Shown here: piece after piece, positions 5,833 through 58,792 of the stretch
Layout of the letters: the number at the start of each line of letters is the position of its first letter
How positions within the stretch are numbered: position 1 is the first letter of the stretch
From: Halorientalis sp. IM1011
Lineage (GTDB): Archaea; Halobacteriota; Halobacteria; Halobacteriales; Haloarculaceae
NCBI RefSeq assembly: GCF_001989615.1
Contig: NZ_CP019067.1
Span: 2,356,001 to 2,420,000, forward strand
Length of the DNA stretch: 64,000 nucleotides
Direction of reading: 5' to 3'
Position numbers and translations under genes: made by a program
Notes under the pieces: model-generated
Told to the model about the DNA's origin: nothing
What the model saw: the letters and a program-made list of their open reading frames with translations, nothing else
The model's database searches: none

Positions 5833-6063
5833 GTGGTCGTCGCCTACGTCATGGTGAAGGCCCACACTGGTGACGCCGACCGCATCAAGGCCGACATCGA
5901 CGCCGTCTCCGGCGTCGTCGAGTGCTCCATCGTCGCCGGCGACGTGGACTTCATCGCCAAAGTGGACGTGGACTCCCCCGCCGCCGTCAAGGACGTCGCC
6001 GCCTCCGGCATTCAGGAAATCGACGGCGTCGAGTCCACGCAGACGTACATCGCGATGGACTAG
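5833..6063 (+). CDS. stand-alone RAM domain protein, paralogue of the gene at 4800-5030
   Basis: 76 residues (GTG start) with the same layout as the divergent paralogue: VVAYVMVKAHTGD at the start, then IVAGDVDFIAKV. Only the ligand-binding fold is present. A GGAGGTG ribosome-binding sequence at 5819-5825, inside the end of trkA, precedes the GTG by seven bases and supports this start and coupling to trkA. The amino-acid or nucleotide ligand is unknown. Confidence 0.85.
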   Translation: MVVAYVMVKAHTGDADRIKADIDAVSGVVECSIVAGDVDFIAKVDVDSPAAVKDVAASGIQEIDGVESTQTYIAMD

Positions 6064-6264
6064 CACCTTTTTACTGCAGGGGGATTCCTCGGGTGCCGAA
6101 GGCACCCTGCGGAACCCCCTTCTGCTCACGGGCGCATAGCGCCCGTTCGCATGGTATGAGGGACCTCCGGTCCCTCACTATTGCAAAAACGTGCGTGAAA
6201 AACTCCCTCCGCGCTCGGCTTCGCCTCGCGCGGAGTGAACCGCGGCGCTTCGCGCCGCGGATGC
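6064..6264 (+). repeat. modular hairpin element, copy E1 (about 200 bases)
   Basis: Begins directly at the stop of the RAM gene with CACCTTTTTACTGC and carries the box TTGCAAAAACGTGCGTGAAA at 6181-6200. Between and after the boxes lie at least five perfect or near-perfect hairpins (for example GGGTGCCGAAGGCACCC, GGGCGCATAGCGCCC, and a palindrome at 6240-6260 flanked by GTGAAC and ATGC). It occupies most of the 304-base gap before the next gene. The boxes recur in four other copies in this window; no coding sequence is apparent. Confidence 0.75.
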
Positions 6265-6367
6265 TGGCCATACCGCACAGTCACCGGGAACGCACGACAA
6301 CTGCACGGCGACCGCGACCCGCACCGCTCCGGTACACACTTGTCTCCGACAGCCGACACCACCCCCA

Positions 6368-6790: not shown

Positions 6791-7309
6791 TTACAGCGGC
6801 GTGCCGCCGCGCTGACCGCCCTCGCCGCCGCCAGTCGCGGCCTCGCCCAGCAGATCCGCGACGACGCCCTCGTAGTCGTAGCCCGGCACGACGCCCTCGA
6901 CGTAGGTCCCTTCCACGTACTCCGCGAAGGCCTTCACGACGTCGGGCGCGTGGTCGGCGTTCCCGAACTCGAAGTCGAATTCGGCGACCGCCTCGCCGTC
7001 GTCCTCGGTGAGCGTCACCGAATCCAGTTCCACGTCGGTTCGAGTGACCGACGACACGTCTTCGAGACGACGCTCGAACGTGTCGAACCAGCCCGACTCT
7101 ACCGCGTCGCCGACCTCGCCGTCCACGGCCGAAGACAGCATCGGTGTCCGGACGACCAGCCGGTAGGAAAGCGCCCAGTCGTCGGTCTCGCTCGCGGTCA
7201 CGCGCCCCTCGAACCGCGTCGTCGTCACGACGAACTCGTCACCGTCGCGCTCGAAGGCCCCGTGGCCCTCGAACGCTCGTTCCGCCCGCTCCGGAATCCC
7301 GTCTGTCAT
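6791..7309 (-). CDS. conserved haloarchaeal protein (DUF5813-like), function unknown
   Basis: 172 residues, acidic and soluble, with alternating strands in the first half (FVVTTTRFEGRV, LSYRLVVRTP) and a C-terminal Gly-rich tail. It looks like the haloarchaeal family I know as DUF5813, though I cannot confirm this. The reading frame continues upstream to 7552 through tRNA-like repeats, but the conserved sequence starts at the Met at 7309 (MTDGIPERAERAFEGHG), so I chose that start. Confidence 0.75.
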   Translation of the reverse strand: MTDGIPERAERAFEGHGAFERDGDEFVVTTTRFEGRVTASETDDWALSYRLVVRTPMLSSAVDGEVGDAVESGWFDTFERRLEDVSSVTRTDVELDSVTLTEDDGEAVAEFDFEFGNADHAPDVVKAFAEYVEGTYVEGVVPGYDYEGVVADLLGEAATGGGEGGQRGGTPL

Positions 7310-7378
7310 GCCACCCAGTACGCGAGCAGCCGGCAAAAGCCCGTTGTGTCGGTGCTCGATTCTACGTGAGAGAAGTCC

Positions 7379-7867
7379 TGCGAGGGAGGGGATCTGAACT
7401 ACGTCCAGACGGTCGCTCCCTTCGGTCGCGCTGCGTCTGGCCTCATTCAAATCCTCCGACGATTCCGTCGCGCTGCGGATTGCAGCGCGACTCCATGCGA
7501 GGGAGGGGATTTGAACCACGGTCGTTCCCGTTCGCTCGCTTCGCTCACTCACCTCTCACTCCCTGATTCAAATCCCACAACGATTCGCCCGCGCCACGGA
7601 ATGTGGCGCGGTCTCATGCGAGGGAGGGGATTTGAACCGGAGCCAGAGGTTCCTGCTCGCTCGCTTCGCTCGCTGTGCGGGCTGCCACTGGCAGGGTTCA
7701 AACCCTCCGACGATTCCGTCGCGCCACGGAATGTGGCGCGACTCCATGCGAGGGAGGGGATTTGAACCACGGTCGTTCCCGTTCGCTCGCTTCGCTCACT
7801 CACCTCTCACTCCCTGATTCAAATCCCACAACGATTCGCCCGCGCCACGGAATGTGGCGCGGTCTCA
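7379..7867 (-). repeat. tandem array of tRNA-Leu 3'-end copies (four units, 117-130 bases each)
   Basis: Units start at 7379, 7496, 7617 and 7747, immediately downstream of tRNA-Leu(UAA). Each begins with the sequence of the tRNA's T-arm and 3' acceptor strand (on the plus strand TGCGAGGGAGGGGATTTGAA, one base changed in the outermost unit), continues with a variable stretch and an inverted copy of the T-arm (TTCAAATCC), and ends with a GC-rich hairpin (GCGCCAC...GTGGCGC in three units). Units at 7496 and 7747 are nearly identical. None can form a full tRNA, since the 5' half is missing. Confidence 0.85.
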
Positions 7868-7951
7868 TGCGAGGGAGGGGATTTGAACCCCTGGACCCCT
7901 ACGGGAGCGGATCTTAAGTCCGCCGCCGTTTCCAGGCTTGGCTACCCTCGC
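7868..7951 (-). tRNA. tRNA-Leu (anticodon UAA)
   Basis: An 84-base class II tRNA. Acceptor GCGAGGG pairs with CCCUCGC plus discriminator A; D-arm GCC/GGC; anticodon stem GCGGA/UCCGC with loop CUUAAGA, so the anticodon is UAA; a long variable arm (UCCCGUAGGGG) typical of Leu tRNA; T-stem AGGGG/CCCCU with loop UUCAAAU. CCA is not encoded and no intron is seen. Confidence 0.95.
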
Positions 7952-8112
7952 ACAGTTCCCCCTCCATCCGTGAGGGGTTTGTCGGTTTCGGTCCGCAATC
8001 TCCCCCAGTTCACGGTCGCGGCTGGACTGACACGAACCTGAAACCGGAACAACAGGTATGTGCGTCGATGTGCAATGACAGTCATCAATTACCATTTTAG
8101 GCACTCGAATGT

Positions 8113-17755: not shown

Positions 17756-17950
17756 CCACCTTTTTACTGCGGGGGGTGCGCTCACTCCGTTCGCGCACCC
17801 CGCTTGCAAAAACGTGGGCGAAAAACGTTCCGCGAGTCGCGCCGAAGGCGCGCTCGCGGTGTCTTCGTGAGTGACCGCAGGGAACGAACGAAGGCTCGAA
17901 AGACGCTTCGCGTCTTTCGGTGAACCGGCGCGCAGAGCGCGCCGGATGCG
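17756..17950 (+). repeat. modular hairpin element, copy E2
   Basis: CCACCTTTTTACTGC (17756-17770), a hairpin with GGGGTGCG/CGCACCCC arms, the box TTGCAAAAACGTGGGCGAAA (17804-17823), then further hairpins including GAAAGACG/CGTCTTTC (about 17898-17918) and a 21-base palindrome (17925-17945) flanked by GTGAACC and ATGC as in E1. Unlike the other copies it lies between two divergent genes, filling most of the 309-base gap 17714-18022. Confidence 0.75.
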
Positions 17951-58646: not shown

Positions 58647-58792
58647 ATTCGCCCCCGATCACCAGTGCCGCCTGCGCCGACACTGCCGCAGGGGCTCATC
58701 TGCGAATTCGCCCCCGATCACCAGTGCCACCTGCGCCGGCACTGCCGCAGGGGCTCATCTGCGAATTCGCCCCCGATCACCAGTGCCGCCGG
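58647..58792 (-). repeat. 59-base tandem repeat made from the ROK kinase 3' end
   Basis: Two full units (58647-58705, 58706-58764) and a 28-base third part (58765-58792) that is the real end of the kinase gene. Each unit carries the last codons (encoding GTGDRGRIRR), the TGA, and an imperfect palindrome CCTGCGGCAGTGCCGGCGCAGG-like hairpin (22 bases, two changes between copies). It occupies the 134 bases between the glpK stop and the kinase stop. Confidence 0.85.

Follow-up and report, generated by a model that had tools for sequence, protein, structure and literature searches.

Tandem units with copies of the tRNA 3′ end behind haloarchaeal tRNA genes: a family of structured elements that resembles RtT RNA in anatomy

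The tRNA-Leu(UAA) gene of Halorientalis sp. IM1011 is followed, on its own strand, by four tandem units, each of which ends in a copy of the 3′ end of that tRNA. These units belong to a widespread family of tRNA-coupled structured elements that carry copies of the tail of their cognate tRNA. The sequence data suggest that haloarchaea possess a widespread and undescribed family of tRNA-linked RNAs, and we hold with fair confidence that the array is one locus of units resembling the RtT RNA of E. coli, which would be co-transcribed with the tRNA, cut by tRNase Z and act on their own tRNA. A literature search that reached few subscription journals found no description of such a unit family in haloarchaea, and yielded just prophage-linked partial tRNAs and one remark in PMC7921747.

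The array occupies positions 7379-7867 of the window (the whole stretch of 64,000 nucleotides that was analysed), downstream of tRNA-Leu(UAA) on the minus strand, where units of 121, 130, 121 and 117 nt follow each other head to tail. From the tRNA gene outward, the features are:

7868-7951, minus strand: mature tRNA-Leu(UAA) gene, nucleotides 1-73 (ARAGORN; Rfam RF00005, 54.5 bits)
7747-7867, minus strand: unit 1, 121 nt, type B core TTTGAATCAGGGAG...CGACCGTGGTTCAAAT
7840-7862, minus strand: hairpin H1 of unit 1, CCGCGCCAC-ATTCC-GTGGCGCGG
7747-7827, minus strand: hairpin H2 of unit 1; its left arm is the inverted T-arm at about 7812-7827
7747-7767, minus strand: copy 1 of tRNA nucleotides 53-73, exact
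7617-7746, minus strand: unit 2, 130 nt, type A core GAACCCTGCCAG...CTGGCTCCGGTTC
7719-7741, minus strand: hairpin H1 of unit 2
7617-7712, minus strand: hairpin H2 of unit 2
7617-7637, minus strand: copy 2 of tRNA nucleotides 53-73, exact
7496-7616, minus strand: unit 3, 121 nt, identical to unit 1
7589-7611, minus strand: hairpin H1 of unit 3
7496-7576, minus strand: hairpin H2 of unit 3
7496-7516, minus strand: copy 3 of tRNA nucleotides 53-73, exact
7379-7495, minus strand: unit 4, 117 nt, the most diverged, type D core GAATGAGGCC...GGACGTAGTTC
7468-7490, minus strand: hairpin H1 of unit 4, in which bases differ and pairing is kept (CGCTGC/GCAGCG)
7379-7461, minus strand: hairpin H2 of unit 4
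7379-7399, minus strand: copy 4 of tRNA nucleotides 53-73, with one mismatch in the last 20 nt

Each unit begins with the small hairpin H1, placed directly after the preceding tRNA end, and continues with the long hairpin H2, whose 3′ strand is in every case the copy of the tRNA tail from G53 to the discriminator N73. Over 20 nt, the four copies carry 0, 0, 0 and 1 mismatches. The cores differ in units 2 and 4, and the type A core of unit 2 recurs in this genome in the array of tRNA-Lys(UUU). Beyond the array lies a DUF5813 gene (6791-7309) that points the same way. A candidate L7Ae k-loop (stem-GA-loop-UGA-stem) was considered for H1, and the H1 hairpins of the window itself do not have it. 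A preliminary description of this DNA had recognized four tandem units with tRNA-Leu 3′-end copies, the GCGCCAC/GTGGCGC hairpin and the near-identity of the units ending at 7496 and 7747, all of which proved to be real; units 1 and 3 are in fact identical over 121 nt, which supports its proposal that the array grew recently by unit duplication. It had further described the copies as T-arm plus acceptor strand and had noted an inverted T-arm. The tail copy stands, but the 5′ strand of the T-stem is absent and identity starts only at G53; the inverted T-arm is present and is the partner strand of the tail copy within one long hairpin. Membership of the array in an Rfam family was rejected.

The extent of the copy is sharply defined. 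The first copy behind a tRNA gene is 0.89-1.00 identical to its tRNA over G53-N73, and this identity drops abruptly at nucleotide 52 and at nucleotide 74; the copy leaves out the T-stem 5′ strand. The 3′ edge coincides exactly with the mature tRNA terminus, without CCA. In Haloferax volcanii this mature 3′ end is made on tRNAs by tRNase Z (PMC7714728), and the same enzyme probably cleaves at the tail copies. We then asked how closely the copies follow their own tRNA, using the positions within nucleotides 61-73 at which a tRNA differs from the consensus of its isoacceptors. The copy agreed with its own tRNA at 115 of 121 such positions and with the consensus at 1; these positions are non-independent, the species partly sharing ancestry, and the similarity by which the copies had been found lay outside the tested positions. 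The copies thus track their tRNA across species. The left arm of H2 follows its tRNA in only 35 of 63 cases, which indicates that the copy keeps closer to its tRNA than hairpin pairing needs.

Such copies are frequent behind tRNA genes taken regardless of arrays. Requiring 20 nt with at most three mismatches within 700 nt downstream, a copy of the own tail was found for 20 of 44 tRNAs in the window genome (G000) and for 13 of 45 in a genome of another family (G025), while a third genome (G031) had none of these long copies behind its 41 tRNAs. The same search upstream of the tRNAs gave 0, 1 and 0 copies, respectively, and the mean of a swapped-tail control was 0.2, 0.05 and 0. With 20 of 44 downstream, none upstream and 0.2 expected from swapped tails in the window genome, the own-tail copies are not due to chance. 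In haloarchaea, the tRNA genes that bear units have one to four of them. The units are dispensable, since they are missing from the whole of G031 and, in a genus most of whose members bear them, from several species. The count for the window genome leaves out a dense, virus-like cluster of about 31 tRNAs outside the window (C1:2239040-2244716), which has no tail-copy array and showed just scattered partial tail matches in an earlier scan. Two identical tRNA-Lys(CUU) loci with identical arrays lie near both ends of the 3.38 Mb contig (C1:10907-10980 and 3372637-3372710); judged from the coordinates, they probably reflect an untrimmed circular overlap of about 20 kb in the assembly.

The distribution of the core motif was evaluated by scanning 84,980 named genomes for TTTGAATCAGGGAG-N5..35-CGACCGTGGTTCAAAT. 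At least 120 stretches matched, and the titles of the 120 matches listed are nearly all those of haloarchaeal genera or haloarchaeal MAGs, one source being a MAG titled just Euryarchaeota archaeon. Among the 86 matches in the first 80 loci listed, 80 lie 35-382 nt behind a tRNA gene on the same strand, covering 24 tRNA kinds, and in 62 of these 80 matches the bases after the core match the tail of that very tRNA with 0-1 mismatch. Five of the remaining six have no upstream tRNA in the stored locus, and for the sixth the nearest is 3.1 kb away. With 80 of the 86 listed core matches behind tRNA genes, a dispersed mobile repeat of the MITE or REP type was rejected. In 393 genomes of the phylum, the core pattern occurred in 20, all of one order; the sampled genomes of the phylum outside that order gave no match, and the backward-pattern control was empty in the same 393. 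Within the samples searched, the core motif is restricted to haloarchaea. Fragments of the window query matched in 39 of 39 related genomes, the strongest matches including the tRNA gene itself. Queried against its own genome, the array also gives two weak matches (2893612 and 2324991) that fit no listed tRNA.

The units are predicted to fold stably, with a median z of -4.7 and 48 of 58 below -3. The sense fold was more stable than the antisense fold in 41 of 58 unbiased units (p=6.5e-6) and in 146 of 159 units of a set selected by pattern, with the qualification that a control region shows a small strand bias of the same sign (-1.4 kcal/mol). On the sense strand, the internal loops contain 59 G.A mismatches versus 15 C.T. 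Covariation was analyzed after 35 distinct type B cores had been aligned; because the rows of the alignment were picked by an invariant core pattern, only the apical and the outer stems are informative. The apical stem is 97.9% paired and shows 23 two-sided changes versus 4.3 in shuffles, and the outer stem, which includes the tail copy, also covaries. In the unbiased stems G.T pairs are in no excess over A.C (44 versus 39), so that the simple G-U test of selection at the RNA level is negative for this set; an excess of G.T in the pattern-selected set is due at least partly to one fixed wobble pair.

This anatomy recalls that of the E. coli RtT RNA (Rfam RF00391). Behind tyrV, the tyrT/tyrV locus of K-12 MG1655 contains three units of 178 nt, each ending with the last 19 nt of tRNA-Tyr, and the locus as a whole gives four RtT matches. 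The Rfam structure pairs bases of GGGGAAGGAU with bases that belong to AUCCUUCCCC in the tail copy. The haloarchaeal units likewise lie in tandem behind a tRNA gene and end in a copy of the 3′ end of that tRNA, part of which pairs with an earlier complement and so forms the stem that closes a branched hairpin. There are also clear differences. The haloarchaeal copy comprises nucleotides 53-73 without CCA, whereas that of E. coli is made of the last 19 nt including CCA, and the haloarchaeal units, unlike RtT, occur behind tRNAs of many kinds, carry the tail of the respective tRNA and possess the extra hairpin H1. The RtT covariance model found no match in window positions 7300-8000 up to E=10, and none at the gathering score in eight other haloarchaeal loci. 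The haloarchaeal units are thus alike in anatomy and are not filed as RtT members. According to Bosl and Kersten (1991; cited in PMC4986893), tRNA transcripts release RtT as an RNA, and effects of RtT on the stringent response are reported (PMC4986893, PMC8092127).

The cognate identity of the copies suggests that the units act on their own tRNA. In the mechanism that we favour, the units would be transcribed as 3′ extensions of the pre-tRNA, and tRNase Z would cut after the discriminator of the tRNA and likewise after each copy, releasing RNAs with a tRNA-like end. Selection may keep the copy cognate because the released end meets its own tRNA. The most plausible action would be a competition for the 5′ acceptor strand of the tRNA, which would tune its folding or maturation, and the arrays would expand and shrink through recombination between the direct tail repeats. 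Among the readings offered in the preliminary description, a tRNA-processing decoy and a general process of 3′-end duplication come closest: the copies do end exactly at the mature terminus, many tRNAs in different haloarchaeal families carry the same arrangement, and so does E. coli RtT. A bolder version is possible, although we consider it doubtful. The units would be genome-wide decoy RNAs, in which a second acceptor 3′ strand borne by the hairpin competes for the tRNA 5′ strand or for maturation enzymes and provides tRNA-specific control of maturation; RtT would then be a convergent example confined to a single locus. If the favoured mechanism is true, an E. coli-type curiosity of tRNA operons becomes a general RNA architecture linked to tRNAs and shared by two domains of life, and H. 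volcanii, with its published 3′-end data and tools for tRNA processing, is a tractable organism for asking what RtT-like RNAs do.

The layout of a unit (intact tRNA gene, insert, tail copy) looks like that of an integrated element, and haloarchaeal elements do bear partial tRNA 3′ ends (PMC3119063, PMC7921747). The units might accordingly be miniature versions of integrative elements with attachment sites in tRNA 3′ ends, or scars left by such elements; for the array, a scar of serial integration had been suggested from its sequence. We regard an origin of this kind as very improbable. None of the array tRNAs in the window genome, the one in the window included, has an integrase of the PF00589 family within 10 kb; the genome gives seven PF00589 matches, six of them over the cut-off, and one adjoins a tRNA-Tyr gene that is arrayless. 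Phage and plasmid collections queried with the array matched at tRNA genes and nowhere else. The att sites and tRNA remnants of haloarchaeal elements resemble the units in placing a partial tRNA 3′-end copy downstream of an intact gene (PMC3119063, PMC7921747), but those examples bound kilobase islands, usually with an integrase, and the repeats reported for Haloquadratum measure 22, 43 or 57 nt. The units, in contrast, are hairpins of about 75-200 bp with 21-nt copies that lack the 5′ half of the T-arm. Partial tRNAs beside full tRNAs are listed as remnants in the genome paper of Haloferax gibbonsii LR2-5 (PMC7921747), whose main text, in its passages on them, describes no structure, generality or conservation. 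Some archaeal "tRNA remnants" in annotations may be conserved structured elements and not debris.

Comparisons between species bear on the same question. From one genus we gathered 30 tRNA-Leu(CAA) loci with no criterion but the tRNA sequence, and most of these loci have one unit. Alleles without a unit retain either H1a (L306, L320, L322, L325) or H1b (L312, L315), and units have thus been gained and lost. Two unit-less junctions, where a single exact empty site was looked for, fit recombination between direct tail repeats or short matches and not one exact integrase junction. In the pattern-selected Halorubrum tRNA-Leu(CAA) loci and in the tRNA-Val loci of Natrialbaceae, the proximal unit is shared and the distal units vary, which is the opposite of serial insertion beside the tRNA. 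Of the 30 tRNA-Leu(CAA) loci, 18 with a unit adjoining the tRNA were aligned. Mean pairwise identity among them reaches 0.987 in the tRNA and 0.94 in H1a; it is 0.70 in the outer left arm, 0.98-1.00 in the core, 0.973 over nucleotides 62-73 of the copy and only 0.11-0.61 in flanking DNA.

The main rival is a neutral DNA process without RNA function, in which slippage or unequal recombination duplicates tRNA 3′ ends, recombination homogenises the copies, template switching at quasi-palindromes keeps the hairpins and ectopic exchange moves the cores. Several observations fit it: species differ in unit number, alleles without a unit lie between direct repeats, window units 1 and 3 are identical, recombination can also give the concerted evolution by which copies track the tRNA, and G.T pairs are about as frequent as A.C in the unbiased stems. 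We nevertheless consider this process unlikely to be the explanation. Against it stand copy edges placed exactly at G53 and N73, a core and a copy conserved within one genus almost like the tRNA itself, and the asymmetry of the G.A loops toward the sense strand.

A further argument comes from a short form, consisting of a hairpin and then the last 8 nt of the tRNA, which is widespread behind tRNA-Leu(CAA). The hairpin of this short module is often GGAAGA..TCTTCC (loci L328-L397, G000:C1:3016161 onward). The sample comprised 63 intact tRNA-Leu(CAA) genes from genomes drawn across the order. The acceptor reads GCGAGGG in 57 of them, and in 56 of these 57 an exact CCCTCGCA follows the gene within 450 nt, some of the 56 being, or including, long copies. 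A copy with a predicted hairpin before it was present behind 53 of the 63 genes. The single GCGGGGG gene has CCCCCGCA, and one of five GCAAGGG genes has its own CCCTTGCA, inside a long copy; none of these six genes has a copy of the GCGAGGG type within 300 nt. Even G031, which is without long copies, has a short copy behind tRNA-Leu(CAA). Eight nucleotides are too short for ordinary homologous exchange, and the presence of this cognate copy across the order speaks against the neutral process.

Alternatively, the units could be ordinary terminators or 3′-stabilising hairpins of tRNA genes, with incidental tail copies. Many RNA 3′ ends in H. volcanii are preceded by hairpins, one of which terminated transcription in vivo (PMC7237163). 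Termination, however, does not need a cognate acceptor strand, and we judge this explanation improbable. T-runs, used as a terminator test of the units, are rare in the background too.

Several other repeated or tRNA-related sequences were observed. In five loci of the G025 genus (L311, L314, L316, L318, L321), a second, pseudo tRNA-Leu lies about 200 nt downstream; its D and anticodon arms are largely kept, a big hairpin occupies the variable arm, the 5′ acceptor strand has decayed and the 3′ end is mostly intact. The window also contains a dispersed hairpin-rich element at 6063-6275 and at 17806, 21807, 28867 and 29059, with the motif GCAAAAANGTGNGNGAAAAA, which occurs five times in the window versus 0.01 expected. 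The element has 24 matches in the genome, some copies lying close behind tRNA-Pro(UGG) and near tRNA-Ala(CGC). Finally, positions 58647-58787 of the window hold a tandem repeat with a 59-bp unit in 2.4 copies and 97% matches.
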